DNA of 26,032 nt. Source: a virus. The notes below the pieces were generated by a model that worked only from the letters and a program-made list of their open reading frames with translations, did not search any database and was not told where the DNA came from. The position numbers and the translations under genes were made by a program. The stretch is taken from the IMG/VR virus record IMGVR_UViG_3300042691_026564, positions 1-26,032 of that record; one strand, given 5' to 3'. Shown here piece after piece: positions 3,001-25,035 of this stretch. The stretch's first letter is position 1. Every line of letters starts with the position of its first letter.

Positions 3001-4688
3001 CTTGGACACAACAGGCTAAAATACAAGCTGGCACTCCACAAGCTCCTGCTCTTTTTGGATACTCAGTGGCAATTGATGGCGATACAGTGGTGGTTGGTGC
3101 CTATATGGAAGATGTGCTTGTTGACCAAGGCGCAACCTACATCTTTACCAGATCAGGCACTACATGGACACAACAAGCCAGACTAGTCGCCAGTGATGCA
3201 CAAACAAGTGATAATTTTGGATACTCGGTGGCAATCAGTGGTAATACAGTGGTGGTTGGTGCCCGGTACGAAGACCCTGGCGCCATCAGTGATGCTGGAG
3301 CTGCTTACATCTTTACCAGATCAGGCACTACTTGGACACAACAAGCCAAACTAGTCGCCAGTGATGCACAAGCAAGTGATAATTTTGGATGGTCAGTGGC
3401 AATTGATGGTGATACAGTGGTGGTTGGCGCCTATCTGGAAGACCCTAGCGCCATCAGTGATGCCGGATCGGCTTACATCTTTACCAGATCAGGCACCACT
3501 TGGACACAACAGCAAAAGATACAGGCCAGTGACGCACAAGCAACTGATTGGTTTGGACACTCGGTGGCAATTGATGGTGATGTGGTAGTTGTCGGAGCCC
3601 ATCTGGAAGACACTGTTGCAGCCAGCGCCGGTGCGGCCTACATTTTTTCCAGATCGGGCACTACTTGGACACAGCAATCAAAAATACAGGCCAGTGATCC
3701 GGAAAACAGCGATTGGTTTGGATGGTCAGTGGCAATTGATGGTGATACAGTAGTTGTCGGTGCTGAACGAGAAGACACTGTTGGCGCTGACGCTGGCGCG
3801 GCCTACATTTTTAAAGGTAATACAAATTACCAAACAGGAGCTGATACTCCTGGACAACAATTGTTTACAACTCCTGGAACGTACTCTTGGACAGCGCCTG
3901 CGGGCGTTACTGCAGTTAGTGTAGTTGCAATAGGCGGCGGCGGCGCAGGTGGTGCTGCGTACTACTCTGGTGGCGGTGGTGGCGGAGGAGGCGTTGGATG
4001 GAAAAGTCGTATTACTGTTGTACCTGGATCAAGCTACACAGTTCAAGTAGGAGCAGGCGGAATAGGAGTTACTGCAAATGCCGGTGGTATAGGCACTCCG
4101 GGGGGTGACTCTTATTTTATCGATAATACTGTCGTTGTAGGTGGAGGAGGAGGTGCTGGTCAAGGAAGTTCCGACAACACCAACGTCAACCGAGCAGGCG
4201 GCGCAGGCGGTACTTTTGTGGGAGACGGTGGCAGCGCAGGAGGCGCAGGCGGAACATCATCTGGCGATACGGCAGGTGGAGGAGGAGGTGCTGGAGGCTA
4301 TAACGGATCTGCTTACCTAGGCCCAGCAGCAACAATGGCAACATTAACTGGACGTGGTGTTGGGTTCGGCGCAACAACGTTTGCAGCTCCATTTAACGGT
4401 GGTGGCGGTGCTGGTGGGCAGTATGGCAACCCCACAGCGGGATCTGGTGGCGGCGTAGGAGCATTAGGTGCAGGAACCAACGGAAATGTGGCAAGCGCTG
4501 GCGGCTCTGGTGGTACTGCTGGTGGTGCAGTGGGAGTTGTGGGTGCTGGGGGATTGTACGGCGGTGGCGGTGGCGGTCAATCCTCCGATAGCAAAAATAC
4601 TCCTGGTTCTAATGGAGGTAATGGCGCAGTTCGAATAATATGGGGAGCTAGCAGAGCTTACCCGTCAACTAATACTGCGAACGTATAA
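3..4688 (+). CDS. Giant modular tail fibre / adhesin (5'-truncated)
   Basis: Virion fibre protein, probably a receptor-binding or long fibre. The frame is open through the left edge, so the N-terminus is missing; 1,560 residues follow the GTG at 6, which is just an internal Val of a repeat. Residue numbers count from that codon. Residues 1-265 and 380-470 are Thr/Asn/Gly-rich fibre repeats (SAQPNITSVGTL, GNGSQLTGLP, NVAAYLPTYTGN). About 271-379 is a cupredoxin-like domain (H313, C367, H370, M373). About 782-881 resembles an Ig/cadherin-like domain. About 889-1272 holds seven FG-GAP repeats, predicting a seven-bladed propeller. About 1284-1560 is a glycine-rich domain ending in GAVRIIWG, like the polyglycine tip of some T4-like adhesins. 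Each domain type is known in phage or surface proteins; the combined role is inferred. Enzymatic activity is not expected. Confidence 0.9.
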   Translation, partial: NVAAYLPTYTGNISADTITANTFTGNITGGSNTASTVTASAQPNITSVGTLTSVSSTGNITGAYILGNGSGLGSISGANVTGTVANATYATSAGSATSATTADTVTTSAQPNITSVGTLTSLSSSGNITGAYFIGNGSQLTGLPESYANANVAAYLPTYTGNLVSLQGNVTTTANISASHVLGNGSGLSSITGANVTDQVANALVSGTVYTAAQPNITSVGTLSSLSVTGNISTAGLISGNAAGASNLVFGNITTFSTANITTDELYLQATTRLEVTASGSSGYLFDQYGAGLNPTLYARSGDTLAFNLAVTGHPFLIRLGGANYSTGLNHVTTLGVVSSDAAAQGQEAGTLYWKIPYGITGNYQYQCSVHGGMLGTIAIADANTSNISIASAGTVTASAQPNITSVGTLTSLSSSGNITGNYFVGNGSQLTGLPESYGNANVAAYLPTYTGNLVALTGNVTTTANVSANYFLGNGSQLTGIAAGGGTTTFSSTAPVSPAQGDIWIDADSGIQYIYFNDNTSSQWAEMEAQTSISPGADLSAVAANILPAADVTYDLGSATYRWRDIYLSGNTINLGGATIKTDAGSGAIALIPEPTEANPNPSGMVVSPSGGITVVATVGGEVSGNAIANAAASPTAAPVPIDITTTAPTNGQALIWDSANEEFVPGNVGGGTPGGANTQIQFNNAGEFAGSANLTWSGTTLDVIGTANISANITVGNILTDGYYYANGEPFAGGGGATATVYGNIGSLPLANVTTGSMAFVSGNNRLYLWNGTGWFNIALINTNPTITSGPDASYVFATDGTPTVLTLVAEDPEGIPITWSYQVTSGSLGSTATISQADNVFTITPSNSPDYSGSFSVTFTASDGVNIATAASSFTLVFPPSWALPFINQQAKIQASDTAPSDRFGTSVAVSGNTVVVGAYLGDPVAQADAGAVYIFTRSGTTWTQQAKLVASDAQATDWFGSSVAIDGDTVVVGAHAEDTGGSSAGSAYIFTRSGTTWTQQAKIQAGTPQAPALFGYSVAIDGDTVVVGAYMEDVLVDQGATYIFTRSGTTWTQQARLVASDAQTSDNFGYSVAISGNTVVVGARYEDPGAISDAGAAYIFTRSGTTWTQQAKLVASDAQASDNFGWSVAIDGDTVVVGAYLEDPSAISDAGSAYIFTRSGTTWTQQQKIQASDAQATDWFGHSVAIDGDVVVVGAHLEDTVAASAGAAYIFSRSGTTWTQQSKIQASDPENSDWFGWSVAIDGDTVVVGAEREDTVGADAGAAYIFKGNTNYQTGADTPGQQLFTTPGTYSWTAPAGVTAVSVVAIGGGGAGGAAYYSGGGGGGGGVGWKSRITVVPGSSYTVQVGAGGIGVTANAGGIGTPGGDSYFIDNTVVVGGGGGAGQGSSDNTNVNRAGGAGGTFVGDGGSAGGAGGTSSGDTAGGGGGAGGYNGSAYLGPAATMATLTGRGVGFGATTFAAPFNGGGGAGGQYGNPTAGSGGGVGALGAGTNGNVASAGGSGGTAGGAVGVVGAGGLYGGGGGGQSSDSKNTPGSNGGNGAVRIIWGASRAYPSTNTANV
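120..1232 (+). repeat. Four-copy fibre repeat (SAQPNITSVGTL type)
   Basis: The peptide (S/A)AQPNITSVGTL(T/S)S is encoded at about 120-155, 324-359, 636-674 and 1197-1232, each time followed by a GNI(T/S) segment. A companion module, GNGSQLTGLPE followed by NVAAYLPTYTGN, occurs near 405-490 and 1275-1365 and recurs in the next gene near 5055-5145. Copies are close at the DNA level. This fits beta-rich trimeric fibre shafts and provides substrates for recombination between fibre genes. Confidence 0.8.
2680..3820 (+). repeat. Seven tandem FG-GAP repeats (about 160 bp each)
   Basis: Seven in-frame units each contain an FG(T/S/Y/W/H)SVA core, then VVVGA, then YIF(T/S)RSGTTWTQQ. The FG cores read RFGTSV, WFGSSV, LFGYSV, NFGYSV, NFGWSV, WFGHSV and WFGWSV. 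The DNA around the RSGTTWTQQ segment is nearly identical between copies, suggesting recent expansion or gene conversion. Seven copies equal one closed integrin-alpha-like beta-propeller. Confidence 0.88.
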
Positions 4689-9485: not shown

Positions 9486-10145
9486 ATGACCAAATTAAAA
9501 AGTTTTGGATGCAGTTTTATTTTTGGCTCTGACTTAAATGATGTCAATTTGGAACACAGCCAGGCTTCATCGCAATCAACATGGCCAGCATTGATTGCTC
9601 GAAAATTAAATATTGATTATGAATGCCATGCTTTGCCAGGTCAAGGCAACTTTAAAATCTACTGCGACATTTTGGCCAACAGTCGTCTCAATGATGACTC
9701 AGTGTATGTCATAAACTGGACCTGGATTGATCGACATGATTATATCAATTCTCAAGAATGTTGGGATACGTTAAGACCTGCTCAAGAAAATCAATTGCAG
9801 GAATTCTACTACAAAAATTTACATAGTCAATTACATGACATGATATCCAGCGCCAGTTGGATAGTGTCAGCAGCCGAGCACCTGAACTCATTGAATTGCA
9901 ATTTTGTAATGACCTACATGGATCACAATTTGCTGATGCCAATTAATCCCAATTGGCACGATCCCAGATATTTAGAAATACTACAACAAAAACTTAAACA
10001 CCTGTTGGTAGATTTTGATGGTTTGAATTTTTTAGACTGGTCCAGACAAAATCATTATCCAGTCAGCAGCCGGTGGCATCCTTTAGAAGCAGCACATCAA
10101 GCCGCTGCTGACTACTGGTTGTCTTACATTCAAAGTCGAGTGTAA
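9486..10145 (+). CDS. SGNH/GDSL-hydrolase-like protein
   Basis: A 219-residue protein, AT-rich compared with the fibre genes. Block I reads FGCSFIFG with the candidate nucleophile S10. A Gly/Asn block PGQGNFKIYCDIL near residue 50 corresponds to the oxyanion region, and VYVINWTW follows a typical strand. The C-terminus SSRWHPLEAAHQAAADYW carries the candidate catalytic H198, but the usual Asp three residues earlier is Ser here, so the triad may be altered. SGNH enzymes are esterases and O-acetyl-hydrolases; a phage enzyme could deacetylate host polysaccharide. No signal peptide. The start has no Shine-Dalgarno sequence, only AT-rich TATATAAC just upstream. The 3' end overlaps the minus-strand methyltransferase by 16 bases. 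Confidence 0.75.
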   Translation: MTKLKSFGCSFIFGSDLNDVNLEHSQASSQSTWPALIARKLNIDYECHALPGQGNFKIYCDILANSRLNDDSVYVINWTWIDRHDYINSQECWDTLRPAQENQLQEFYYKNLHSQLHDMISSASWIVSAAEHLNSLNCNFVMTYMDHNLLMPINPNWHDPRYLEILQQKLKHLLVDFDGLNFLDWSRQNHYPVSSRWHPLEAAHQAAADYWLSYIQSRV

Positions 10146-10864
10146 ATAAAATACAAGCGTTCATTGGCATCGCGCTTGAACGTGTCCAGTCGCAGACGAT
10201 ATTTCTCTGCAAACTCATTTACTACTTCGAAACTCCAAGGAAAAATGTCCACATAAGGGCCAGCCTTGTGTGGGATGCCTGGGTTGGCTCTCAAATAAAA
10301 CTTACCGCCTGGAGCCAACAAATCCACACAGTGACTGAACCTGGCTTCGATGTCTTCGCGACTGTTAAAGTTGATTGATCCCAGGGCAATGATTGCATCG
10401 TAGGTGCCAGGACGAACCCGGTAGTCCAGAATATCTACTTCATAGTCAGCACAGTTGTTGTAGGGATCAATGCCCACAAGATTAGGGATACGGCCTTTGA
10501 ATGGGTGATACCCACACCCCACATCCAGCACTGCACCAGGATTGGTTTTTGAAATTTCTTCGGCTAAGGCCCAACCTGTGTAGTCGTATTCGCCTGTTCT
10601 GGGCTTCCAAATCTCGGCAAAAAATCTGTGAATGTAGCGCTCACTTAGATTGTCTACGATAGATTTCAGTGTGCCCACATAATCGCAGGGCAAACTTAAC
10701 TCGGCTTCTACCGCGTTCTTAAACTTGCGGTAGCGTGCCGGAGTCCAGGGCAACTGATCCACTTGAGTATCAGGTCCAATAGCACTGCGTATTGTGTCGT
10801 ACTTGGCCAGGGCAAATGCCTGGTGTAAATTTTTTGTGATTAGAGAGAAAATTTTGGTATTCAT
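10130..10864 (-). CDS. Class I SAM-dependent methyltransferase
   Basis: A 244-residue methyltransferase on the minus strand. Motif I is VLDVGCGYHPFKG (D114 to G118), the acidic residue after strand 2 is D133 in LVGIDPYNN, motif IV region is YDAIIALGSINF and a later strand is LAPGGKFYLRANPG. This is the Rossmann SAM-binding fold. The N-terminal 100 residues are helical and may give specificity. Substrate unknown: a small molecule, sugar or protein is possible; no DNA-methylase NPPY or PCQ motif is visible. It is AT-rich, lies tail-to-tail with the SGNH gene (16-base overlap), and is divergent from the Bug receptor gene across a 95-base AT-rich spacer. Confidence 0.85.
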   Translation of the reverse strand: MNTKIFSLITKNLHQAFALAKYDTIRSAIGPDTQVDQLPWTPARYRKFKNAVEAELSLPCDYVGTLKSIVDNLSERYIHRFFAEIWKPRTGEYDYTGWALAEEISKTNPGAVLDVGCGYHPFKGRIPNLVGIDPYNNCADYEVDILDYRVRPGTYDAIIALGSINFNSREDIEARFSHCVDLLAPGGKFYLRANPGIPHKAGPYVDIFPWSFEVVNEFAEKYRLRLDTFKRDANERLYFIYTRL

Positions 10865-10959: not shown

Positions 10960-11922
10960 ATGTTGAAAAAAATTATTGCAGTTACTTGCTTGTCTGCTGC
11001 TGTGTTGGCCCAGGCGTTTGAAGCGCCGCGCACGGTGACTGTGACCACAGGATTTGGTCCTGGATCTGGTAACGAAGTCAGTTTTCGTGCTGTTGCAGCC
11101 ATTGTAGAAAAGCAAAATCCTGGAACCAGCTATGTGGTTCTAAATCGTCCCGGTGCCGACGAAGTGGTTGCCTTGAACTGGTTTACCAAGCTTGAGCCCA
11201 AGGGCGATAACTTGTATATCACCAGCCATCAGGGTGTGTTCACCGCCATTGACCACTGGTATCCTGATCAGATCAAATTTAATCCATTTGACATGGAGTT
11301 TGTGGCCACTATTGCCAAGAGCCCCCTGGCTGTGGTAGCTAACATCAACAGTCCTACCAACACTCCAAAAGAGTTGCTGGCTCGTATCAAAAATACCCAG
11401 CAACCTATCACATTTGGTCTGGGCGCAGGAGCGCACAAACTGGTGTTTGAATATCTCATGGACAAAGGCCAAGGCAATCGCCAACTGGTCAGCAGCGTGA
11501 TGTATAAAGGTCCAGCACAGGCAGTGAATGACGTGGCCGGGGGACATGTGGAATTTGGTATCCTGCCCACTGCAGTGGCCTATGGCTTGGTCAAAGGCGG
11601 CAAGGTCAAATACATTGCACTGGCCGGCGAACAACGCTTGGCTCGTATTCCTGATGTTCCACTGTGGCAAGAAACTGTGCCTGGACTCAACGTGTATGCT
11701 GCCTGGGCCATTGCCATGCCACCGGGAACTCCTAGAAATCAAGTGGACCACTACAACCGCCAGTTTGTGGCTGCTATTCGTAGTGCTGAAGCCAAACAGT
11801 TCTTTGACGAGAACTTGATGTTTACTGTGCCGGCAGAACATACACCCGAAGGTGTAAGAAAGCATCTAACTGAACTGCGTAAAAAATGGTTTCCTTATGT
11901 GCAAAAAATGAAGTTTGATTGA
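10960..11922 (+). CDS. Bug/TctC-family periplasmic solute-binding receptor
   Basis: A 320-residue exported receptor of the tripartite tricarboxylate transporter type (Bug family), which binds carboxylates and similar solutes in the periplasm for a TctAB permease. The signal peptide is residues 1-19, cleaved after AQA. Family features: TVTTGFGPGSGNE, VLNRPGADEV, GLGAGAHKLVFEYL, VMYKGPAQAVNDVAGGHVEF, KGGKVKYIALAGEQR, PDVPLWQETVPG and MPPGTP. Length is normal. Start: AAGGAG 8 bases before the ATG. No permease gene is visible, so it would have to serve a host transporter or act by itself. Bug proteins are greatly expanded in Burkholderiales, so capture from such a host is plausible. It heads a seven-gene coupled operon. 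The family call is firm; the ligand is unknown. Confidence 0.92.
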   Translation: MLKKIIAVTCLSAAVLAQAFEAPRTVTVTTGFGPGSGNEVSFRAVAAIVEKQNPGTSYVVLNRPGADEVVALNWFTKLEPKGDNLYITSHQGVFTAIDHWYPDQIKFNPFDMEFVATIAKSPLAVVANINSPTNTPKELLARIKNTQQPITFGLGAGAHKLVFEYLMDKGQGNRQLVSSVMYKGPAQAVNDVAGGHVEFGILPTAVAYGLVKGGKVKYIALAGEQRLARIPDVPLWQETVPGLNVYAAWAIAMPPGTPRNQVDHYNRQFVAAIRSAEAKQFFDENLMFTVPAEHTPEGVRKHLTELRKKWFPYVQKMKFD

Positions 11923-11923
11923 T

Positions 11924-12592
11924 ATGCAAAGCAGTTGGCAACAAACCAAACAAACCAGCGCCTATCACTTTGATCCTGCTGTTCAAGACCCTAGATGGGA
12001 CACAGTGATCGGCCTGGGAAGATTTGCACCTGTATGGCAATCAGAACTGGAACAAATTGTATCAGAATCTGAACCAGCCACTTGGGCCACTCGTGGCTAC
12101 AAAGGCCGAGGTGTCGAGCCCCCGCCAGAAGATCAAGCTGCCGAAACATATGATCTGAAGAGTGTGGGAGTTGATCCTGCTGCCACAATCACACACTTGA
12201 ACTGGAATATGCCTCCTGTGCTGCAACGGATCAGCGACCTGTTTGCTCTAAAGGACACCATGAACCGCATTCATGTGCAGCGGCCAGGCGAACTCTGGAA
12301 CTTGCACATTGACAAACTGCAAAAGTGGTGTCCAGAAGATCCTGATCGAATCATGCGAATCATGATACAGCTAACTGATTGGCAACCAGGACAGTTCTGG
12401 GAATACGGTAACTATCACTACAATCAGTGGAAAGCTGGAGATGTGACCACGTTCGACTGGCAGAACGTGCCGCACAGCACAGCCAATGCAGGCCGCCATC
12501 CCCGAGTCACACTGCAAATAACTGGTGTGGCAACCGCACAGACCCAAAAGTTTTTACAAACTCTCAGAAATACTGTAACATACACTGTATGA
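11924..12592 (+). CDS. 2OG-Fe(II) oxygenase-like hydroxylase
   Basis: A 222-residue protein. Fe(II) ligands in the double-stranded beta helix are likely H128 and D130 (LWNLHID) and H184 (VPHSTANAG), with R194 (HPRVTLQITG) as the 2-oxoglutarate-binding Arg. Strands such as RIMIQLTDWQPGQFWEYGN support the fold. The arrangement resembles aspartyl/asparaginyl beta-hydroxylase-type enzymes, which hydroxylate protein side chains or small molecules; phages often encode such oxygenases without known substrates. The ATG at 11924 is two bases after the receptor stop; a TTG three codons upstream is an alternative. The stop overlaps the next ATG (ATGA). Confidence 0.85.
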   Translation: MQSSWQQTKQTSAYHFDPAVQDPRWDTVIGLGRFAPVWQSELEQIVSESEPATWATRGYKGRGVEPPPEDQAAETYDLKSVGVDPAATITHLNWNMPPVLQRISDLFALKDTMNRIHVQRPGELWNLHIDKLQKWCPEDPDRIMRIMIQLTDWQPGQFWEYGNYHYNQWKAGDVTTFDWQNVPHSTANAGRHPRVTLQITGVATAQTQKFLQTLRNTVTYTV

Positions 12593-13209
12593 AAACTGTG
12601 TTAATCTTAACCGGGCCGCAGGGCTCGGGCAATCACATGTGGAGCAAGATCTTTGCTCTACATCCTGAAGTGCAAGGCTGGCAGGCCTTGCTGGATCAAT
12701 ACTGGCAGGGTCATGACCAAGAGCCTTTTGCCGATTACTGGGTTCGTCCTGATACATTATCCCAGTTTGACTGGAGTCAGAGCGACTGGTATGTGACCAG
12801 CATTTCGGTGCCGTATGCTCTCAACGGCACACTCACCGTGCCTGACTTTGCGCAGTTTGTGTCCGCTGTGCAGCAACAGGGGCATGCAGTAAAGATTGCT
12901 CTACTGGGCAGAGATCGCAACATTGTGTCCATGCAGGAACAGCGTGTGCGGGGACAGCCTACTTTGAGTCAGGCCCTGCACAGCTATCAACAGTTGACCC
13001 CCGATGCTTATCTCAGTTATGAACTGTTGCACCTGTATGGTGCAGCCTACTTGAAAAATGTGGCACAACAGTTGGACTTTCCCATTGACTGGAACAATCC
13101 CGCAGTGGAAAAAATACTGGAGGTGGATACCAACAGTAAATATTTCAGTGCTGTAGATCACTATGCCACAGACGATCTTGCACGACTCTCATCAAGGAAA
13201 TGGCGATGA
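12589..13209 (+). CDS. P-loop protein lacking the Walker lysine (sulfotransferase/kinase-like)
   Basis: A 206-residue protein. The N-terminus MKTVLILTGPQGSGNHMW has the strand-loop-helix shape of a nucleotide-binding P-loop, but the Walker Lys and Ser/Thr are N15 and H16. Such Lys-less loops are usual in sulfotransferases, whose loop binds the 5'-phosphate of PAPS. The rest (GWQALLDQYWQGHDQEPFAD, KIALLGRDRNIVSMQEQRV) includes an Arg-rich segment that could bind the 3'-phosphate. I recall relatives in other phages with no known role. It lies between the oxygenase and the APS-kinase-like gene with ATGA overlaps at both ends. A longer frame from 12427 would overlap the oxygenase gene and is rejected. 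Confidence 0.7.
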   Translation: MKTVLILTGPQGSGNHMWSKIFALHPEVQGWQALLDQYWQGHDQEPFADYWVRPDTLSQFDWSQSDWYVTSISVPYALNGTLTVPDFAQFVSAVQQQGHAVKIALLGRDRNIVSMQEQRVRGQPTLSQALHSYQQLTPDAYLSYELLHLYGAAYLKNVAQQLDFPIDWNNPAVEKILEVDTNSKYFSAVDHYATDDLARLSSRKWR

Positions 13210-13643
13210 CCAAACGAATTTTAATCATGGGCCTGCCTGGGTCAGGCAAAAGCACACTAGCAGAACCTTTCGCCCGCCTGGTAGGTGGAGTATGGCTCAA
13301 TGCTGATGCTGTGCGAGCCGAATACAATGACTGGGACTTCACACCTGAAGGACGTCAACGTCAGGCACACCGCATGCGATATCTAGCTGACGGAGTGATC
13401 AAAGCAGGCAAGATTGCAGTGGCAGATTTTGTGTGCCCCACCGAAGCTGCCAGAGCAGGATTTGCAGCAGACTATGTGGTCTGGATGGATACTATCGCAG
13501 AAGGCAGATTTGAAGATACCAATCGAATGTTTGAAAAACCCACTCGAGTAGACTACCATGTGAGCGAGTGGTTCACTGATACACACGAACAACTGTTCCG
13601 TGTGTTCAAAGATTATTTTGAAAAGGAAACTCCCAATGTTTGA
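13206..13643 (+). CDS. Adenylylsulfate-kinase-like P-loop kinase
   Basis: A 145-residue kinase. Walker A is GLPGSGKST (residues 9-17). GVWLNADAVRAEYNDW matches the APS-kinase region around DGDNVR, and GRQRQAHRMRYLADGVIKAG followed by VADFVCPTEAARAG matches the region preceding and including ISPFRADR. APS kinase (CysC) makes PAPS, the donor for sulfotransferases. The protein is shorter than bacterial CysC (about 200 residues), and the Ser that is phosphorylated in E. coli CysC appears replaced by Cys, so the substrate could differ. Start 13206 has AAGGA at a good distance and overlaps the upstream TGA; ATG 13200 is too close to it. The end overlaps the nucleotidyltransferase by 8 bases. Confidence 0.8.
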   Translation: MTKRILIMGLPGSGKSTLAEPFARLVGGVWLNADAVRAEYNDWDFTPEGRQRQAHRMRYLADGVIKAGKIAVADFVCPTEAARAGFAADYVVWMDTIAEGRFEDTNRMFEKPTRVDYHVSEWFTDTHEQLFRVFKDYFEKETPNV

Positions 13644-14046
13644 TTGGAAACGACCCACTACACAGATGTTGGGGCGCTGGCAACCTTGGCATCCAGGACA
13701 CACTGCGTTGTTTAAAAAGGCCCTGATGGAAACTGGGCAAGTGTGTATTCAGATTCGAGATGTGGGTGGTATCGTGGGTCAGGATGCTGGCGCCGGACGT
13801 ACTGCAGCACAAACAGACAATCCGTTTGATCTAGACACTGTCAAGGCCAACATTGTTGACGCCTTGGCTGGGGAAGGATTTGTCCACAACGAGGATTATA
13901 TCATCATGCAGGTGCCCAACATTGTGGACATCAGCTACGGCCGCGGAGTAGGCTACACATTCTCACAGCATGATCTTGGTGAAGAAATCCACAACATCTC
14001 AGCTACCAAAATTCGTGCTGAGCTACGAGCTGCGGGCAAACTGTAA
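13636..14046 (+). CDS. Cytidylyltransferase-fold nucleotidyltransferase
   Basis: A 136-residue enzyme of the HxGH nucleotidyltransferase superfamily. GRWQPWHPGH holds H19-P-G-H22, and HNISATKIRAEL holds the ISxTxxR motif (121-127). These bind NTP phosphates when a nucleotidyl group is moved onto a phosphate or sulfate acceptor. ATP sulfurylase belongs to this superfamily but is far larger, so calling it ATP sulfurylase would be unsafe; NMN, pantetheine-phosphate or glycerol-phosphate type adenylyl- or cytidylyltransferase activity is equally possible. It is coupled to the APS-kinase-like gene upstream and to the membrane gene downstream. A second family member lies at 23647. Confidence 0.85.
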   Translation: MFDWKRPTTQMLGRWQPWHPGHTALFKKALMETGQVCIQIRDVGGIVGQDAGAGRTAAQTDNPFDLDTVKANIVDALAGEGFVHNEDYIIMQVPNIVDISYGRGVGYTFSQHDLGEEIHNISATKIRAELRAAGKL

Positions 14047-14246
14047 TGGATGCACCATGCCGAAGCTTGGTCAAAACCATTAGTTGGCGTATCACAGGGT
14101 CAGGTGCCACATTCTTGATTGCATACTTGCTGACTGGTAATTTTGCTGTGGCCGGCGTAATTGGGCTCACGCAAATGGTCACCAACACCATACTGTACTA
14201 TGCGCACGAACGTATCTGGAACAAGATTGCATGGGGGCAGCAATGA
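14046..14246 (+). CDS. DUF2061-like small membrane protein
   Basis: A 66-residue membrane protein. It begins RSLVKTISWRITGSGATFLI, then a hydrophobic hairpin (FLIAYLLTGNFAVAGVIGLTQ), and ends with YYAHERIWNKIAWG. These are the marks I know for DUF2061, a two-helix inner-membrane family often found near sulfate-activation genes. Function unknown. The start overlaps the upstream TAA by one base and the stop overlaps the next ATG, so it is made with its neighbours. Together with the APS-kinase-like gene it may mark a sulfate-related cassette (inference). Confidence 0.85.
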   Translation: MDAPCRSLVKTISWRITGSGATFLIAYLLTGNFAVAGVIGLTQMVTNTILYYAHERIWNKIAWGQQ

Positions 14247-15121
14247 TATTATTAGACTTAAAAATTATGTCTAAAGTCCATTTACAATGTGAATTTTCAG
14301 GCATGGACAGGCTAGAAAATTGTTTGAACAAAGATCATTTTCGTAATTATCCACATAAGGTCGATTATGTGTATAACAGCCGAGGTTTTCGCGACGCAGA
14401 GTGGCCCGAGTCTCGAGAAGAATTAAAAAATGCCATATGGTGTATAGGTGACAGCTTTACTGTGGGCGTTGGTAGCCCGTACAATTTTACATGGCCACAG
14501 ATGTTGTCTGCAGCAACTGGCCGACGATGCATCAATGTAAGCATGGACGGTGCCAGTAATAACTGGATCAGTAGACGAGCACAGCAAATTATTAGAGAAG
14601 TTTCTCCCACTCACATGGTGGTGCTATGGTCGTATCTTCATCGTAGAGAATCTGCTGATATTAAATTGCCCGATGAAGATCGTCGAATTTGGGCAACACC
14701 AGCATCATACCTGGATGATTTTGCAAATTTTGTGTGGTGTTATCAACAATTGAATACTGCCGAAATATCTACAAAGATTTATAACAGTTCAATTCCTAAA
14801 TATTCCTATGTGGGTCAGAATCATATCCAGTGTCTCTGGAATAATATAAGAGATCCCAGTTGGCCTGTGTTGTATCCACAACGTAGATCAGAATTTGCAA
14901 CCTTGCCTGACGATATTCAGGAAGAATTGCTTGCGCAACCAGAAATTAAATCCAATTTGGAATCAGTGTTTGCTCAGGTTGAGTTTCTTGATCACAATGA
15001 ATTGTTGAATCTGACCAATTTAGACTATGCTAGAGATTATCATCATTTTGATAACATCACTAGCAAATTTTTGATTGAGAAAATTTCCAGCAGTTTATTT
15101 TTCAGCAATCAAGGCAGTTGA
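14243..15121 (+). CDS. SGNH/GDSL hydrolase
   Basis: A 292-residue SGNH hydrolase. Block I is IWCIGDSFTVGVG (G69, D70, S71), the Asn block is DGASNNW near residue 105, and block V is DYARDYHHFDN with D265 and H268 as the catalytic DxxH pair. The triad is complete, unlike the SGNH-like gene at 9486. N-terminal CEFSGMDRLENCLN and YNSRGFRDAEWP are typical of phage members as I recall them. A likely O-acyl esterase on polysaccharide or LPS; no signal peptide. The ATG at 14243 overlaps the upstream TGA; 14231 and 14267 are alternatives. AT-rich relative to upstream genes. The 3' end overlaps the sulfotransferase-like gene by 27 bases, tail to tail. Confidence 0.82.
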   Translation: MILLDLKIMSKVHLQCEFSGMDRLENCLNKDHFRNYPHKVDYVYNSRGFRDAEWPESREELKNAIWCIGDSFTVGVGSPYNFTWPQMLSAATGRRCINVSMDGASNNWISRRAQQIIREVSPTHMVVLWSYLHRRESADIKLPDEDRRIWATPASYLDDFANFVWCYQQLNTAEISTKIYNSSIPKYSYVGQNHIQCLWNNIRDPSWPVLYPQRRSEFATLPDDIQEELLAQPEIKSNLESVFAQVEFLDHNELLNLTNLDYARDYHHFDNITSKFLIEKISSSLFFSNQGS

Positions 15122-16321
15122 CGTGATACTGTGCCAAAAATTTTGCTCTTTTTGAACGGATAAGTCAATAGATTGATGAGTTAATGGCAACGAAATATTA
15201 GAATTTTGGTAGCACCAGTTGTTATAAATTTCCAGGCACTGATCGAAATTCTTTATAATTTTTTGTTTGTCAGCCATGGTTTGTTTTTTGATTGGTGGAC
15301 CATTCATAATAATTCCAAGATCTATCATTTGCTCGATAGTTTGTTGGGCTAGGTCATACCCTTCTTTTAAGGGCAACAATTGTTGCTGTCTTTCTGCATC
15401 CAACAACGAGATTATACCATTTCGCTCAACAGCCTGCATTTCAAATGTCTCCAGGATTTTAGCTGGCAATTTTTCCAATTCAGTGATTGATTCTATTGCT
15501 GGCCATTCTGGCAAGGCATTTTTTTGATAGTCTGCCACTAGATCTACTTTGTTCAACAAGGCAGTTTTGATTTGTGGTAACAATATTTCGGGCAATGCGC
15601 CAATATCGCTATTGGCATAGTGCATCTTGTTCCAGGAATTAAATGTGATGCCAAAATTTGATTCCCAGGATATTTTGTTTGACTGCGCACCAAATACCGG
15701 AAGATCAAGTATAAATTTTTCTATCTGAGGAATGTCTTGTTCATAGTTAAAAAACTTTGCAATATTAAAATATTGTTCGCTCCAGGATATATAGTCTCGA
15801 TATGCATTTAATTGATTGACAAATACGTCAGAATCGAGTGTGACTCCTGATTGATACATTTTGTAAAATGTATCAACTTTTTCATGCGCAGTGTAGACAT
15901 TTAATTTTTTGGTAATTTTGTTTAACGTCATGCTGAGTGCATGTTCAAACACATTGGTTCTTCTACATGCTATAATTAAAAAATTTTCATTAAGATAATT
16001 GTAGAATGGAATTTGTTCAGCAATTGTGTCTCCGCGGCGGCGAATATGATAGTGCGCAAGCCTTGAAGTTTTGTAATGATTCACACTGTCCAGAAGTTCA
16101 ACGACTTGTTGCAGGGACTGATAATACCCCCATTTTTTTAATGTGTGTTTACTGACTATCTCTTGATTAAATTCTGGACTGTAGTATTTGCTCAATCCAT
16201 TGGTTAACTCGTGTAGATTTATCACTGGTCTATCAAATTGATGAAATTGCATATAAATAGTCAACATACGTTGTAACAGCGTACTGCCTACCGCATCAGG
16301 TGTCAAGATTAAAACATTCAT
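15095..16321 (-). CDS. Sulfotransferase-like protein
   Basis: A 408-residue minus-strand protein. MNVLILTPDAVGSTLLQRML has the sulfotransferase 5'-phosphosulfate loop (G12-S13-T14-L15), and FLIIACRRTNVFEHALS (R120, R121, S130) matches the Arg...Ser motif that binds the PAPS 3'-phosphate. Sulfotransferases move sulfate from PAPS to sugars, proteins or lipids. The C-terminal half is helical and has no recognised domain. It is strongly AT-rich compared with the flanks, suggesting separate acquisition. It faces the SGNH hydrolase and is close to the APS-kinase-like gene, which could supply PAPS (inference). No clear Shine-Dalgarno sequence precedes the ATG. Confidence 0.75.
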   Translation of the reverse strand: MNVLILTPDAVGSTLLQRMLTIYMQFHQFDRPVINLHELTNGLSKYYSPEFNQEIVSKHTLKKWGYYQSLQQVVELLDSVNHYKTSRLAHYHIRRRGDTIAEQIPFYNYLNENFLIIACRRTNVFEHALSMTLNKITKKLNVYTAHEKVDTFYKMYQSGVTLDSDVFVNQLNAYRDYISWSEQYFNIAKFFNYEQDIPQIEKFILDLPVFGAQSNKISWESNFGITFNSWNKMHYANSDIGALPEILLPQIKTALLNKVDLVADYQKNALPEWPAIESITELEKLPAKILETFEMQAVERNGIISLLDAERQQQLLPLKEGYDLAQQTIEQMIDLGIIMNGPPIKKQTMADKQKIIKNFDQCLEIYNNWCYQNSNISLPLTHQSIDLSVQKEQNFWHSITSTALIAEK

Positions 16322-18624: not shown

Positions 18625-19404
18625 GTGAAAAACTATTATCAAATTTTGGGCATAGACAAGTCAGCTTCAGCTGATCAAATCAAAAAAGCCTATCGTAAAT
18701 TAGCCAGTCAGCATCATCCGGACAAAGGCGGCGACACAGTCAAGTTTCAGGAAATACAAGAAGCATATGGCGTGCTGGGCGACGACGCACGACGAGCTGA
18801 ATACGACAATCCCCGTCCACAGTTTTCGGGCTTTCCTGGCGGCAGTGGATTCAACATGCACGACATGTTTGGGCAGATGTTCGGGCAACAGTTTGGACAA
18901 CCGCAGCAGTCTCGACGCAACCATGTGAGAATGACCATTTGGGTAAGCCTACAAGATGTAGCACAGGGCGGAAGCCGAGCCGTGAATGTCAGCACCTCTG
19001 CTGGCTCCAGCACAGTGGCCATCGAAGTACCACAGGGCATTGACGACGGAGACCAGGTGCAGTACGGCGGAGTAGCACCCGGGGGCATGGACCTGGTGGT
19101 GCAGTTTCGAATACAGCCTATGGCACAGTGGCGCCGGGAAGGCCTAAATCTACACACCGAACACAGAATCAGCATCTGGGACATGATTCTGGGTGCCGAA
19201 GTAGAAGTCACCAACATACTGGGTCACAATCTAGTGGTTCGAGTTCCGGCTGGTACTCAGCCCAGCACAGTCATGCGACTGAAAGGGCATGGCATACAAG
19301 ATCGGCATGGGCAAAAAGGTGACCTAATGATTCGCATGCAGGCTCAAATTCCCAAAATCATCGCACCCGAAATAGTCACAGCAATACAACAACACCGATC
19401 ATAA
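18625..19404 (+). CDS. DnaJ/CbpA-like co-chaperone without zinc finger
   Basis: A 259-residue type II J-protein that stimulates DnaK ATPase and delivers substrates. J domain residues about 3-63 with HPD at 31-33 (ASQHHPDKGGD). A Gly/Phe-rich linker about 64-92 is unusually Met/Gln-rich. Two C-terminal beta domains follow (VRMTIWVSLQDVAQGGSR, VAIEVPQGIDDGDQVQYGG, HRISIWDMILGAEVEV, VRVPAGTQPSTVMRLKGHGI). No CxxCxGxG zinc repeats, so it is CbpA-like and shorter than CbpA (about 306). The GTG start is fixed by the J domain and an in-frame stop at 18598. It sits directly before the ClpA-like gene, suggesting a protein-quality-control module. Confidence 0.92.
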   Translation: MKNYYQILGIDKSASADQIKKAYRKLASQHHPDKGGDTVKFQEIQEAYGVLGDDARRAEYDNPRPQFSGFPGGSGFNMHDMFGQMFGQQFGQPQQSRRNHVRMTIWVSLQDVAQGGSRAVNVSTSAGSSTVAIEVPQGIDDGDQVQYGGVAPGGMDLVVQFRIQPMAQWRREGLNLHTEHRISIWDMILGAEVEVTNILGHNLVVRVPAGTQPSTVMRLKGHGIQDRHGQKGDLMIRMQAQIPKIIAPEIVTAIQQHRS

Positions 19405-19418
19405 TATTGTCAGATTGT

Positions 19419-19447
19419 TTGTAAATCAGCTACGTAAGTAGTATAAT
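19419..19447 (+). promoter_or_regulatory. Sigma70 promoter for the ClpA-like gene
   Basis: TTGTAA (19419-19424), 17 bases, then TATAAT (19442-19447). It lies in the 66-base gap before the ClpA-like gene and is followed by AAAGGA just upstream of ATG 19471. The same TTGTAA -35 with a 17-base spacer recurs at 25030. Confidence 0.75.
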
Positions 19448-19470
19448 AAACAAACCCCTAAAGGAAATCA

Positions 19471-21729
19471 ATGACCCCCACTCCTGAAATTGAACACATT
19501 GTGGATCAAGCTGTGAAAATTGCACAGCAAAAACAACACGAATATGTGACCACAGAACACCTGTTGTTGAGCATAATCCGGTTTGCCCCATTTCGCAAAA
19601 CAGCCGACGCTTTTGGCGTAGCAGTGGATCAAATGGACCTGGAACTAGATGCTTACATCACAAGCCTGGTGAGCCTGGTCAAAAGCAATGTGGACACACC
19701 CAAAAAGACCCAGGCTCTGGAGAGAATTTTTAACCGTGCCAACGTGCAGGTGATGTTTACTGGTCGTAGGGCACTAAGCGTGATTGATCTGTATCTGTCA
19801 ATCATGAGCGAAGGCAACAGTCATGCACAATACTACATGCTGAAATATGGCATGAAGAAAGCAGAATTTGTGGAGTTCTGGCAAAAGAACTACAAACCTT
19901 CTGATGTCAAAATGAGTACTCAGCAGGCTGATGAAGTGTTGACCGAGTACTGTACCAGCCTCACTGCTCGTGCGGAAAAGAATCAGCTGGAGCCCATGAT
20001 TGGCCGTGGTAAAGAACTGGAAGAAATGATCACTGTGTTGGCTCGCCGATTCAAGGCCAACGTGCTGATGGTGGGCGATCCGGGTGTGGGCAAAACACAC
20101 ATTGTGGACGGCCTGGCACAGGAAATCATTGCTGGGCGTGTGCCCGAGTTCTTGAAAGGGCACGAAGTCTGGAGCCTAGAAATTGGCTCTTTGTTAGCAG
20201 GATCCAAATATCGTGGAGAGTTTGAAGAAAAATTCAAGGCCGTGATTGCAGCATTGGAAGCCAAGAAAAACTGTATCTTGTTTGTGGACGAAGCACATAC
20301 CATGAAGGGTGCCGGGGCAGGTTCAAGTGCAGGACTAGACTTTGCCAACATGTTGAAGCCGGCCATTACCCGGGGCAGTCTCAAGATTGTGGCCAGCACC
20401 ACCTGGGAAGAGTTCTACGAAAGCTTTGAAAAGGACCGTGCACTCATGCGCCGTTTCTATCGCCTGGCCATTGACGAACCTGATACTGCTACCACAGAAC
20501 AGATCTTGATTGGACTCAGCCCACGCCTGGAACAGTTTCACAATGTGTTAATTGACACCGAAGCCATGACCACTGCTGTGGAACTGGCCAATCGATATAT
20601 TCATGATCGCAAAAATCCTGACAAAAGCATTGACATCATTGACGCTGCTTGTGCTCGGGAGCGTGTGAAAGATTCGGGCACTGTAACCATCACACGTGAC
20701 ATGATCGAGGCGCAGGTGGCTCGCATGACTGGTGTGCCCACAGACAAACTGCAGAACGAACGTTCAGCTAAGATTGTGGAACTGGAATCAAACATCAAGC
20801 AAAAGCTGTATGGTCAAGACTCAGCTGTGGATGCTGTGCTGGATCGTGTGTACATCAGCTTTGCAGGTATCAGCAACGAAAAGCGACCCATGGCCAGTTT
20901 CTTGTTCCTGGGCCCAACAGGCACAGGCAAAACCGAACTGGCTCGCTTGCTGAGTGCCAACTTGGACATGCCCTTGCTGAAATATGACATGAGCGAGTTC
21001 CAAGAACGCCACAGTGTGTCAAGCTTGATTGGTGCTCCCCCGGGCTATGTGGGCTTTGAGGACGGCAGTGTGGGCGGCGGCAAGCTGATCTCGGATATCA
21101 GCAAGAACCCGTTCAGCATCATCTTGTTTGACGAGATTGAAAAGGCTCACCCCGATGTGTCAAACATCCTGCTGCAGATGCTGGACGAAGGTGTGCTGAC
21201 CTCCAGCAACGGCAAAAAGGTCAACGTCAAGAACTCCATCATTATCCTGACATCTAACCTGGGTGCTGCTGCCGGTGAAGGCAACATGATTGGCTTTGGA
21301 TCACAGGAAAAGACCGGCGAAGACGAACGAGCACTCCGGGAGTTCTTCAAGCCTGAAATGCGTAACCGTATTGATCAGATTGTGAAATTCTCCCGCCTGG
21401 ATACCTTGGCCATCAAGAAAGTAGTGCTGAAGTTCACACAAGAACTGCAGACAAGTCTGGCCAACAAAAACATCCGCTTGACCCTAACCGAAGCTGTGGT
21501 GGACATGCTGGCTGACAAGGGCTATGACGCCAAGATGGGTGCACGACCCCTAAGCCGCAAGATTGATCAGTTGATCCGTGTACCACTCAGCAAGCGGATC
21601 CTGTTTGATCGACTCAGCGACTGTGACATTGCTGCTGACATGTTGAACGATGATGTGGTGTTTGATGTGGTTGCACACGAGATTCCGGTGGTAGACAATG
21701 ACGGAATCATTCGTTTCCCCGGAGCCTGA
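19471..21729 (+). CDS. clpA: ClpA-like AAA+ unfoldase with ClpP-docking loop
   Basis: A 752-residue Hsp100 ATPase, about the length of E. coli ClpA (758). N domain about 1-150 (VTTEHLLLSIIRFAPFRKTA). First AAA+ module: Walker A GDPGVGKT (202-209), Walker B FVDEAH (271-276). Second: Walker A GPTGTGKT (481-488), Walker B ILFDE (551-555), then RPLSRKIDQLIRVPL. There is no ClpB-type coiled-coil insert. After the second Walker B, NMIGFGSQE carries the I607-G608-F609 tripeptide used by ClpA/ClpX to dock on ClpP. It may therefore feed substrates to host ClpP; no phage ClpP is visible. It has its own sigma70-type promoter and a good Shine-Dalgarno sequence. Confidence 0.93.
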   Translation: MTPTPEIEHIVDQAVKIAQQKQHEYVTTEHLLLSIIRFAPFRKTADAFGVAVDQMDLELDAYITSLVSLVKSNVDTPKKTQALERIFNRANVQVMFTGRRALSVIDLYLSIMSEGNSHAQYYMLKYGMKKAEFVEFWQKNYKPSDVKMSTQQADEVLTEYCTSLTARAEKNQLEPMIGRGKELEEMITVLARRFKANVLMVGDPGVGKTHIVDGLAQEIIAGRVPEFLKGHEVWSLEIGSLLAGSKYRGEFEEKFKAVIAALEAKKNCILFVDEAHTMKGAGAGSSAGLDFANMLKPAITRGSLKIVASTTWEEFYESFEKDRALMRRFYRLAIDEPDTATTEQILIGLSPRLEQFHNVLIDTEAMTTAVELANRYIHDRKNPDKSIDIIDAACARERVKDSGTVTITRDMIEAQVARMTGVPTDKLQNERSAKIVELESNIKQKLYGQDSAVDAVLDRVYISFAGISNEKRPMASFLFLGPTGTGKTELARLLSANLDMPLLKYDMSEFQERHSVSSLIGAPPGYVGFEDGSVGGGKLISDISKNPFSIILFDEIEKAHPDVSNILLQMLDEGVLTSSNGKKVNVKNSIIILTSNLGAAAGEGNMIGFGSQEKTGEDERALREFFKPEMRNRIDQIVKFSRLDTLAIKKVVLKFTQELQTSLANKNIRLTLTEAVVDMLADKGYDAKMGARPLSRKIDQLIRVPLSKRILFDRLSDCDIAADMLNDDVVFDVVAHEIPVVDNDGIIRFPGA

Positions 21730-22541: not shown

Positions 22542-22897
22542 CCACTCAGGCCTTGCTGACTGCAGTTACCCACGGCACACCCTCGGGCAACTATGACGGG
22601 TCCAGTCAGGACTGGTTCTCAGATGCTGTCAAAGCTGCTGACTACTATCGTGGTCGTGGAGGTGTGCAGACCATGGGATTCTCGGTCACAGGGTTTCAGG
22701 GCACCGTCACCATAGAAGCCACCTTGGACATGGATCCAGACTCTGCTGCTTGGTTTCCCACACTAGAATATGGCGATGCCAGCACAGTGACCACACAGAA
22801 CATTTCAGAATCTGTTGTGGGCAACTTCACCTGGTTGCGAGCCAGGATAGAACACTTTGAAGCCGGTGTTATAAACACTGTGACTGTGACCTACTGA
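22538..22897 (+). CDS. Putative structural (decoration/neck-type) protein
   Basis: A 119-residue beta-rich protein without Cys. GNYDGSSQDWFSDAVKAADY, MGFSVTGFQGTVTIEATLDM, and VGNFTWLRARIEHFEAG, ending in TVTVTY, suggest a jelly-roll or beta-sandwich. I recall relatives in aquatic myoviruses labelled as structural or unknown. Coupled by ATGA to the small gene upstream. The last 29 bases overlap the minus-strand HNH gene. Confidence 0.72.
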   Translation: MTTQALLTAVTHGTPSGNYDGSSQDWFSDAVKAADYYRGRGGVQTMGFSVTGFQGTVTIEATLDMDPDSAAWFPTLEYGDASTVTTQNISESVVGNFTWLRARIEHFEAGVINTVTVTY

Positions 22898-23567
22898 TAC
22901 TTGGATTTGATTTACAATTGTCGCTGTGCCATCTAGCAAATGTGCCCGGGGCACATGCAGTATGACATTTAATACACGAGATTCGCTTAGAGTGTGCAAA
23001 CGCATACATCTCTTTTTGTTCAGGCGTTCTGTTCAACTGTTGCTGCCTAATATATTCTCTACGTTCAGGCGTCATTGACTCGACTGTTTTTTGTCTCAAT
23101 ATTTCTTTTAACTCTTTGCTTATTGGTCCTCGTTTGTGTCCAGTATTGCCTGAAGTTTTACCACGTCTATCAATTGCTTCCTGATGTCTTTTTCTAATCT
23201 CAGGATCACTCATTGGATTATTTGTTTTTGTATGGACTGATTTGACTTTGCAATATTCTTGTTTTAGAGATTCATATAGTCTTCCAGTTATTTTATATCT
23301 TTGTTGATTCTGATTCTCTAAGTTTGCCATGGTCCAGGCGGCGTAAATCATTTTTTCTTTGTGTGGACTACATACCATTTTAGTTAGCAACCAATGGCAT
23401 ATAAAGTGTTCTCTTGCAGTTAAATCTACCAAATTTTCTTTTCGATTATTACCGCCTAAACTTTTTGGTATAATGTGGTGTCGTTCCTTATACCCGATCA
23501 ACGATCGAGTTTTAGCTTGTTGGATGATGTTGTTATACCAGGTGGTATATTTGTTGTGTAAATACAT
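22869..23567 (-). CDS. Free-standing HNH homing endonuclease
   Basis: A 232-residue minus-strand nuclease. The HNH core is ERHHIIPKSLGG with H30/H31, N45 in KENLV, and H54 in REHFICHWLL. A middle segment (TNNPMSDPEIRKRHQEAI) resembles NUMOD3-type DNA-binding motifs, and RREYIRQQQLNRTPEQKE continues that basic region. The C-terminus CIKCHTACAPGTFARWHSDN followed by Cys looks like a zinc-binding finger. Such genes spread by cutting an unoccupied site in related phages. It is AT-rich, antisense, and ends inside the 3' end of the upstream structural gene, as expected for an insertion. Confidence 0.9.
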   Translation of the reverse strand: MYLHNKYTTWYNNIIQQAKTRSLIGYKERHHIIPKSLGGNNRKENLVDLTAREHFICHWLLTKMVCSPHKEKMIYAAWTMANLENQNQQRYKITGRLYESLKQEYCKVKSVHTKTNNPMSDPEIRKRHQEAIDRRGKTSGNTGHKRGPISKELKEILRQKTVESMTPERREYIRQQQLNRTPEQKEMYAFAHSKRISCIKCHTACAPGTFARWHSDNCKSNPSISRSQSQCL

Positions 23568-23646: not shown

Positions 23647-25035
23647 ATGAAGACTTTAGTAGTATTACCAATGGGCGCACATCCATTTCACCCGGGGCAC
23701 CTGGCCCTGTATCAGAGTGCGCAACGAGCATTTCCTGACGCTGAAGTGTATGTGGCAGCAACCAACGATACCAGTGCAAGACCATTCCCTTTCCCAGTAA
23801 AAGAAAAACTGGCCAAACTGGCTGGTGTAGAACCTGGACATTTTGTACAGGTCAAAAGCCCTTTCCGCGCAGAAGAAATTACTGCTCGTTTTGATCCCAA
23901 AAGTGACCGCTTGATTTTTGTGCGCTCAGAAAAAGACGCAGACAAACCACCACAAGCAGGTGGCGTCAAACGTGACGGATCGCCTAGTTACTTGCAGCCG
24001 TTGTTGGGTGCAAAGAAACTGGAACCATTTGCCAAGCATGCCTACATGGCCTACTTGCCCACAGTGGAGTTTGGTCCGGGCATGACAAGTGCTACACAAA
24101 TACGCACAGCCTGGCCTACACTAGACCAACGCAGAAAAACTGCCTTGGTCATGAGCCTGTATCCACGCACACAGGGCAATGCCAAGCTTGCGGCCACAGT
24201 GGTCCGACTGTTAGACGCTGCCATTGGTGGTGCATCGGATGTGGCGGAAAGCGTGGAATTCATGTCCGACGCTCAATTCTACGGCGAAATACTGAGTGTG
24301 TTGGCTGCTATGGGCGCAGGACTTGCCACAGGTGCTTACTTAAAAGCGCGAGACATTGTGAAAATGTACAACGCTGATCGAATCATGCGGGCCCTAGAAG
24401 GCTATCGTGTGGGCAATATCAGCGACAGCGAGCGCCAGGCCCTGACCAAACTGATTGCTGAGTTCAAACAGGCCATGGCTCAGCGCCAGGGAGAGCAAGC
24501 ACTTGCAATTGCCAAGCAGATCAAAACTATTGCAACCGATCGGACTTCTGTAGCTGAGGGCTGGAAAGATGTTGTGGCAGGTGGTGCCATGGCGCTGGCT
24601 GCCATGGGCTCTGGTGCTCAAAGCATGCCCGATATCAACGCACAACAAGTCGAACTCACCAACAAATATTACAAAGTGCTGGTTCAACGTGCAGTAGAAG
24701 ATGGTAGGACCTTGGATGCTCGTACCAAAAACTTTTTGATGTCTAAGGCACAAGACGCTGCTGCTCAAAAAATTCAAAAGTCAACAGCACAGACCGCCCA
24801 AACAAAACCACAATTTCCTGCCCAGGGCAGTGAGCAGCGTCGAGCCAAGGATTTTGATCAATTCGAATCTGCAGACGTGGACGAAAACCAAGGCTGGGCA
24901 GCAACACTAGAAACTGTGTCGGCCACAGGCACCACAGCCAATACCTCAGGTTCGGGAGCAGGCATGACTGCCAGCTATCAGCGTCGTGACAATCAGCCCA
25001 TAAGCGAAGACTATTTGAGCGAGCGCAGGTTGTAA
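23647..25035 (+). CDS. Nucleotidyltransferase fused to a long probable virion-type tail
   Basis: A 462-residue protein. Residues 1-160 form an HxGH nucleotidyltransferase domain: MGAHPFHPGHLAL with H15 and H18, and TSATQIR (147-153). Residues about 165-300 are helical. Then comes VAEGWKDVVAGGAMALAAMG, a hydrophobic stretch near 310, followed by a Gln/Ala-rich disordered region and the tail PISEDYLSERRL. Such tails, with EG/SE turns, are common in aquatic phage structural or injected proteins as I recall. The start cannot be moved downstream without losing strand 1. No Shine-Dalgarno sequence; a late-promoter box ends 5 bases upstream. Substrate unknown. Confidence 0.82.
   Translation: MKTLVVLPMGAHPFHPGHLALYQSAQRAFPDAEVYVAATNDTSARPFPFPVKEKLAKLAGVEPGHFVQVKSPFRAEEITARFDPKSDRLIFVRSEKDADKPPQAGGVKRDGSPSYLQPLLGAKKLEPFAKHAYMAYLPTVEFGPGMTSATQIRTAWPTLDQRRKTALVMSLYPRTQGNAKLAATVVRLLDAAIGGASDVAESVEFMSDAQFYGEILSVLAAMGAGLATGAYLKARDIVKMYNADRIMRALEGYRVGNISDSERQALTKLIAEFKQAMAQRQGEQALAIAKQIKTIATDRTSVAEGWKDVVAGGAMALAAMGSGAQSMPDINAQQVELTNKYYKVLVQRAVEDGRTLDARTKNFLMSKAQDAAAQKIQKSTAQTAQTKPQFPAQGSEQRRAKDFDQFESADVDENQGWAATLETVSATGTTANTSGSGAGMTASYQRRDNQPISEDYLSERRL

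Follow-up and report, generated by a model that had tools for sequence, protein, structure and literature searches.

A seven-gene array at positions 10960-15121 of a 26,032-base IMG/VR virus contig (IMGVR_UViG_3300042691_026564, here called the window) probably lets a phage make its own activated donor to decorate a surface molecule. Among the products of the array are a kinase of the adenosine 5'-phosphosulfate (APS) kinase family, a small HxGH nucleotidyltransferase that resembles nicotinamide mononucleotide (NMN) adenylyltransferases (NMNATs), a DUF2061 membrane protein and a P-loop protein with a predicted sulfotransferase fold. The reading that we prefer, at a probability of about 0.48, is a module that makes a 3'-phosphoadenosine-type donor in which the activated group, X, is sulfate, that is, 3'-phosphoadenosine 5'-phosphosulfate (PAPS), for surface sulfation. 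Family assignments and predicted folds, the fusion of kinase and nucleotidyltransferase, the association with DUF2061, the conserved neighbourhood and the clustering of sulfotransferase-like genes were all computed in this analysis. A limited literature search found no description of a kinase/NMNAT-like nucleotidyltransferase/DUF2061 unit; viral cysC genes and phage sulfotransferases are already known.

A divergent APS kinase family in phages

Taken alone, the window kinase matches the Pfam models AAA_33 (3e-8) and APS_kinase (1.6e-7), above the Pfam cut-off. A profile of 38 viral homologues, all of which match APS_kinase, has APS kinases as 24 of its 26 best PDB matches (best 1.8e-13), and other kinase families reach 1e-5 or worse, with T4 Pnk at 0.005. 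The kinase and nucleotidyltransferase were modelled with AlphaFold2 as the fused homologue L035 (pLDDT 86.6). Human PAPS synthetase 1 ranks first in a Foldseek search with this model, and all 50 of the top matches listed are APS kinases. In BFVD, a library of viral structures, the first match is the "Adenosine 5'-phosphosulfate kinase" of Ralstonia phage phiRSL1 (B2ZYE1). An earlier reading of the window, made from the letters alone and here called the sequence-only reading, had described the kinase as APS-kinase-like, and PDB profile, Pfam and Foldseek all group it with APS kinases rather than with polynucleotide kinases.

Like CysC and PAPS synthetases, the phage kinases have the fold, the P-loop, a GFSxxDR-type segment and an FxxPxxxxR motif. 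An alignment with E. coli CysC shows the P-loop retained. Where CysC has DGDNxR (DGDNVR in E. coli), the phage kinases have NADxxR, with the second Asp and the Arg of the motif unchanged; (D/G)F(S/T)xx(G/D)RxxQ takes the place of GFSxxDRxxN, with Phe and Arg unchanged but Gln for Asn. The most CysC-like members, L080 and L075, retain DLGF(S/T)PEDR, and L080, which keeps the DLGFSxxDR signature, matches TIGR00455 at 1.3e-16. As judged from alignments and the model, the kinase is a divergent, shortened member of the APS kinase family, with the ATP-dependent phosphorylation of APS at its 3' position as its putative activity.

Fusion of the kinase with a nucleotidyltransferase

The window kinase and nucleotidyltransferase correspond to positions 2-116 and 124-228 of a single 230-amino-acid PHROG family, phrog_10255 ("kinase"). 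In this family and in the phiRSL1 protein the two parts are fused, whereas the window has two genes; the function given for the phiRSL1 protein is an annotation. Among 81 loci in a kinase-seeded sample (80 retrieved plus the window), 65 encode the nucleotidyltransferase, in the same open reading frame (ORF) as the kinase in 47 cases. In IMG/VR, at least 600 stretches match the nucleotidyltransferase when it is used as the seed, and the kinase is present at 69 of the 80 loci examined. Because they are repeatedly fused, the two proteins are likely to work as one unit. The fused phage form has the same domain order as animal PAPS synthetase, kinase first and nucleotidyltransferase second, but its second domain is NMNAT-like, about 120-136 amino acids long, and not an ATP sulfurylase.

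The nucleotidyltransferase of the window has a weak Pfam match (CTP_transf_like, 0.02), and 8 of 28 family members weakly match the Pfam ATP-sulfurylase model. The family alignment carries HxGH as GRWQPWHxGH, together with ISATxIR, and has a middle block, PNIxxIxYGR[DG]VGY, that is peculiar to it. Archaeal NMNATs and NadM share its GRxQPxHxGH, NPF and ISxTxIR blocks. Unlike them, the phage proteins are shorter, have another partner kinase and lack the NMN-binding stretch, which is replaced. An ordinary ATP sulfurylase, the enzyme with which the sequence-only reading had proposed a comparison, was rejected as an identity, given the missing QxRNPxHxxH motif and an hhalign value of 6.4%.

Several T4-like contigs (L343, L356, L365, L372 and similar ones) carry the nucleotidyltransferase gene directly 5' of a gp41-type helicase gene, past the genes of the UvsX region, in a replication setting that has no sulfotransferases. 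In Stenotrophomonas phage Bhz60 (L084:5565-6741), a NADAR gene precedes the kinase-nucleotidyltransferase fusion with an overlap of a few bases. Stenotrophomonas phage Suzuki and Xanthomonas phage AhaSv are further cultured phages with the fusion. A further protein of the window (23647-25035, + strand), which has no Pfam or PHROG match, begins MKTLVVLPMGAHPFHPGHLALYQ and has TSATQIR further on, suggestive of a second HxGH nucleotidyltransferase-like domain.

Sulfotransferase-like proteins near the kinase

The P-loop protein has no usable Pfam match, and its family has no PDB match by sequence. In 15 aligned homologues its motif is GPQG[SA]GNH, and the Walker Lys is never present. An AlphaFold2 model (pLDDT 87, pTM 0.86) finds human tyrosylprotein sulfotransferase-1 (TPST1) with 3'-phosphoadenosine 5'-phosphate as its first Foldseek match (8e-5). 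The top 50 matches, at modest E-values, are mostly sulfotransferases, with nucleotide kinases among them, and the protein is therefore predicted to have a sulfotransferase fold. It resembles tyrosylprotein and cytosolic sulfotransferases in this fold, in the Lys-less P-loop and in an RD segment, although it lacks a sequence-level match to them. For the earlier proposal that it could use PAPS, the predicted fold speaks in favour, and the PAPS site is seen in part: the 5'-phosphosulfate loop (GPQGSGNH) and the Arg are present, and Gln stands in place of the Ser that binds the 3'-phosphate. Its gene adjoins the kinase-nucleotidyltransferase genes at 8 of 10 loci, and one further contig ends within it.

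The minus-strand gene that converges on the array had also been called sulfotransferase-like. Here the motifs stand, GSTLLQR and R-x8-S being invariant in eight homologues, but the protein has neither a usable Pfam match nor a PDB match by sequence. Its gene adjoins SGNH2 in every relative found. Homologues of this protein and of the P-loop protein were not found in named phages.

Other kinase genes have clearer sulfotransferases as neighbours. The neighbour in L034 matches PF00685 (1.6e-15) and that in L053 matches PF13469 (2.6e-14), both above the Pfam sulfotransferase cut-offs. A weakly Sulfotransfer_3-like family with the sequence GAPGSKWSS lies between the Bug and 2-oxoglutarate (2OG) oxygenase genes in relatives (L063:3498-4118, L069:4123-4740, L058:54-674); it has no PDB match by sequence and is missing from the window. 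Sulfotransfer_3 matches with E values up to 0.01 occur in 17 of 35 large records bearing the kinase or the nucleotidyltransferase, and three of these are above cut-off. In 10 of 15 genomes the nearest sulfotransferase-like gene is at most 8 kb from the kinase, where 1.9 are expected from positions within the same kinase-bearing genomes; the nominal P of 5e-7 ignores kinship and is too small because the phage genomes are partly related. Phage sulfotransferase genes have been reported previously, with their function stated as unclear (PMC10580990).

DUF2061 proteins in phages and cells

The kinase, the nucleotidyltransferase or both are present at 27 of 29 viral loci retrieved with DUF2061, a sample that includes several near-duplicate contigs. 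DUF2061 and the kinase form a fusion in L023-L026; in L353, L354, L359 and L366, DUF2061 adjoins the nucleotidyltransferase without a kinase. The co-occurrence elsewhere that the earlier reading had anticipated is thus seen above all for the kinase-nucleotidyltransferase pair with DUF2061, and also in the clustering of sulfotransferase-like genes near the kinase.

A scan of cellular genomes with an alignment of the phage DUF2061 proteins placed DUF2061 beside sulfate or sulfur genes at 67 of the 80 best loci. These include CysH (64 loci), CysD (58) and CysN (58), as well as sulfite reductase and sulfhydrylase, and all but a few of the 80 loci are from Flavobacteriia. Only one of nine searched genomes with DUF2061 beside sulfate genes has a strong APS kinase match, which indicates that the link there is to sulfate activation and not to the kinase. 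DUF2061 as a general sulfate gene is not upheld outside Flavobacteriia. DUF2061 genes of Pseudomonas affect polymyxin resistance (PMC12632274). In some Pseudomonadota (L301-L303), DUF2061 is flanked by the genes of an OxyR-like regulator and of a catalase-peroxidase-like protein, unlike the sulfate context. A contig under a Woesearchaeota metagenome-assembled-genome label (L189), which also has a DUF2061 gene, reads as T4-like phage DNA, so that its label is probably a binning error.

A possible donor pathway

If these proteins act together, the nucleotidyltransferase would join adenosine monophosphate to X, which would be a small acid or a phosphate, and phosphorylation at the 3' position by the kinase would yield a donor of the type 3'-phosphoadenosine 5'-phospho-X. 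Sulfate is the most likely identity of X, and the product would therefore be PAPS. The DUF2061 protein may assist, perhaps as a supplier of the anion. The P-loop protein would bind this donor through its 3'-phosphoadenosine moiety and pass X on to an acceptor at the surface, whether glycan, lipid or protein, and the convergent protein could be a second transferase of X. The same surface acceptor might also be modified by the methyltransferase, 2OG oxygenase and SGNH enzymes encoded nearby. The sulfation cassette proposed in the sequence-only reading, in which the SGNH enzyme would trim acyl groups, is partly supported.

A more specific version is tentative, and we consider it doubtful: an NMNAT-like HxGH domain turned sulfate adenylyltransferase and a lid-less APS kinase would together form a minimal bifunctional PAPS synthetase, aided by DUF2061, which very many phages would use to feed their own sulfotransferases. 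If the NMNAT-like domain does make APS, it would join Sat and CysDN as a third means of activating sulfate, and a much smaller one; many annotations of "viral cysC", at present taken as sulfur assimilation, would then have to be re-read. With a linked donor-making pair, two or three small proteins would also be enough to test what phage sulfotransferases do.

Conflicting evidence and alternative functions

Besides the kinship among the genomes of the clustering test, several observations weigh against PAPS synthesis and sulfation. The kinase lacks the lid of about 20 residues found in CysC (RDxKGLY...FTGIDxxYE), which is absent from all members aligned, and has Gln in place of a conserved Asn of CysC that we take to be an APS-binding residue; these two features weaken the reading as an APS kinase. 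NMNATs are the best PDB matches of the nucleotidyltransferase profile (9.5e-8), and hhalign gives 96.9% with bacterial NMNAT-Nudix proteins, over the N-terminal half, versus the 6.4% with ATP sulfurylases. In the P-loop family, Gln replaces the 3'-phosphate-binding Ser of sulfotransferases. Many kinase-nucleotidyltransferase pairs are found among replication genes, between UvsX and gp41, where there is no sulfotransferase in the vicinity. The link of DUF2061 to sulfate is seen in Flavobacteriia only: at 20 Pseudomonadota loci DUF2061 has no Cys gene within 8 kb, so the link is lineage-bound. DUF2061 genes respond to iron in Caulobacter (PMC3751524) and are linked to Fur in Shewanella (PMC12442407).

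The kinase and nucleotidyltransferase might instead make a 3'-phosphonucleotide donor that carries some other group in place of sulfate, such as a phosphoramidate-like or phosphate-ester group, and the enzyme with the sulfotransferase fold would then be a non-sulfo transferase. This is rather unlikely, but several features fit it. The nucleotidyltransferase is NMNAT-like, and the acceptors of HxGH enzymes other than ATP sulfurylase are phosphate esters. The kinase keeps the APS-kinase fold while its substrate end is altered, and L035 has the PRK05541 subfamily as its best NCBIfam match, ahead of TIGR00455. The cytidine diphosphoramidate kinase of Campylobacter jejuni, presumably a relative of APS kinase, offers a precedent. 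In PMC10919079, which cites Taylor and Raushel 2018, this enzyme is a kinase whose substrate is a nucleotide-type donor, within a pathway that decorates the surface, that of the capsule O-methyl phosphoramidate; the likeness is by description only. On the other hand, a glutamine kinase or similar gene was not seen, although no search was aimed at such genes, and the nearest cellular relatives of the DUF2061 proteins stand beside sulfate genes.

A role in nicotinamide adenine dinucleotide (NAD) salvage or anti-defence, in which a NadR-like pair would convert nicotinamide riboside to NMN and then to NAD+, is improbable. It would explain the NMNAT matches of the nucleotidyltransferase and the NADAR gene ahead of the fusion in phage Bhz60, but the kinase is APS-kinase-like, not NadR-like. 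Moreover, PNIxxIxYGRxVGY replaces the stretch DIxxNxxW of archaeal NMNATs, which we assume to bind NMN. A fusion of kinase and HxGH domain does resemble NadR (PMC9503650). The same study reports NadV in every NadM phage, whereas the NadV family (PF04095) is found in only one of our 35 records, which further disfavours NAD salvage.

Still less probable is that the kinase raises host PAPS only for sulfur assimilation, as an auxiliary metabolic gene of the cysC type that has nothing to do with the transferases nearby. Viral cysC genes have been reported as auxiliary metabolic genes (PMC9789665, PMC12766990), and the nucleotidyltransferase is missing from some kinase loci. The available excerpts of these reports call the same kinase family in viruses, but annotate single genes and describe no paired nucleotidyltransferase, DUF2061 or transferase module. 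The CysH/CysD family, to which PAPS reductase belongs, is above cut-off in none of the 35 phage records, so assimilation through CysH is disfavoured as the use of the product, and the adjacency of the kinase to a gene with the sulfotransferase fold is conserved. Least probable of all is nucleic-acid or nucleotide chemistry, with a polynucleotide- or deoxynucleoside-type kinase for DNA modification or repair whose product the nucleotidyltransferase caps: location in the replication region of many T4-like contigs and the small margin by which AAA_33 is the best Pfam match of the kinase favour it, but APS kinases come first in PDB profile and fold, with T4 Pnk far down.

The gene array and its surroundings

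The seven genes of the array, all on the plus strand, are contiguous or overlapping, and the last of them faces a convergent gene on the minus strand (Table 1). With start codons that agree with homologues, the junctions range from +1 to -8 bases. A gap of one base separates the Bug gene from the 2OG oxygenase gene (an upstream TTG at 11915 would give an 8-base overlap). Successive overlaps are then 4 bases at the P-loop gene (ATG at 12589), 4 at the kinase (ATG at 13206; 10 with an alternative start at 13200), 8 at the nucleotidyltransferase (ATG at 13636), 1 at DUF2061 (ATG at 14046) and 4 at the SGNH gene (ATG at 14243; 16 with an alternative start at 14231). The convergent gene runs 27 bases into the 3' end of the SGNH gene. 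ORF lengths are above chance, the longest being 320 amino acids against a mean maximum of 106 in mononucleotide shuffles. Megablast against 50,697 named phages found no close DNA relative of the window. The same gene order occurs in several other phage contigs and is therefore not an accident of this one. The coupled array and convergent gene of the earlier reading are thus confirmed, and the motifs of the 2OG oxygenase, P-loop protein, nucleotidyltransferase and convergent protein hold on homologue alignments.

Table 1. Genes of the array and recurrent neighbours in the window
Product	Position	Strand	Basis
Second SGNH-like protein, recurrent neighbour	9486..10145	+	Same flank in L002, L004, L063, L093, L102; no family match
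S-adenosylmethionine methyltransferase-like, recurrent neighbour	10130..10864	-	Methyltransf_23 8e-5 (below cut-off); same flank in relatives
Bug/TctC-type periplasmic solute-binding protein	10960..11922	+	PF03401 9.8e-27
Putative Fe(II)/2OG oxygenase	11924..12592	+	Invariant HxD...H...R, 15 homologues
Lys-less P-loop protein (GPQGSGNH), putative sulfotransferase-fold group transferase	12589..13209	+	Predicted structure, neighbourhood
Divergent APS-kinase-family kinase	13206..13643	+	Pfam, PDB profile, Foldseek of homologue model, CysC alignment
Small HxGH nucleotidyltransferase, NMNAT-like	13636..14046	+	C-terminal half of fused family phrog_10255
DUF2061 small membrane protein	14046..14246	+	PF09834 9.3e-23
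SGNH/GDSL-like hydrolase (weak)	14243..15121	+	Lipase_GDSL_2 0.0053, below cut-off
Convergent protein, sulfotransferase-like N-terminal GSTLLQR and R-x8-S	15095..16321	-	Motifs

The Bug gene is likewise upstream of the 2OG oxygenase gene in L002, L063, L069, L088, L092, L093 and L102. The 2OG protein of the window has no usable Pfam match and its family no PDB match by sequence; Asp_Arg_Hydrox (PF05118) is matched weakly, at best 0.0021, by 2 of the 15 members. Homologues of the SGNH hydrolase at 14243 occupy the matching position in L002, L063, L089, L093 and L102.

The array has a tail-fibre-like region on one side and lysis genes (M15 endolysin, spanin-like) on the other. A tail-fibre-like repeat protein with seven FG-GAP repeats is encoded at 6-4688 (+ strand). 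A probable homing endonuclease at 22869-23567 (- strand) is HNH-endonuclease-like (RHHIIPKSLGGN...REHFICHWLL), with no Pfam match. The stretch 18625-21729 (+ strand) encodes a chaperone pair carried by the phage, DnaJ and, after it, a ClpB-like unfoldase.

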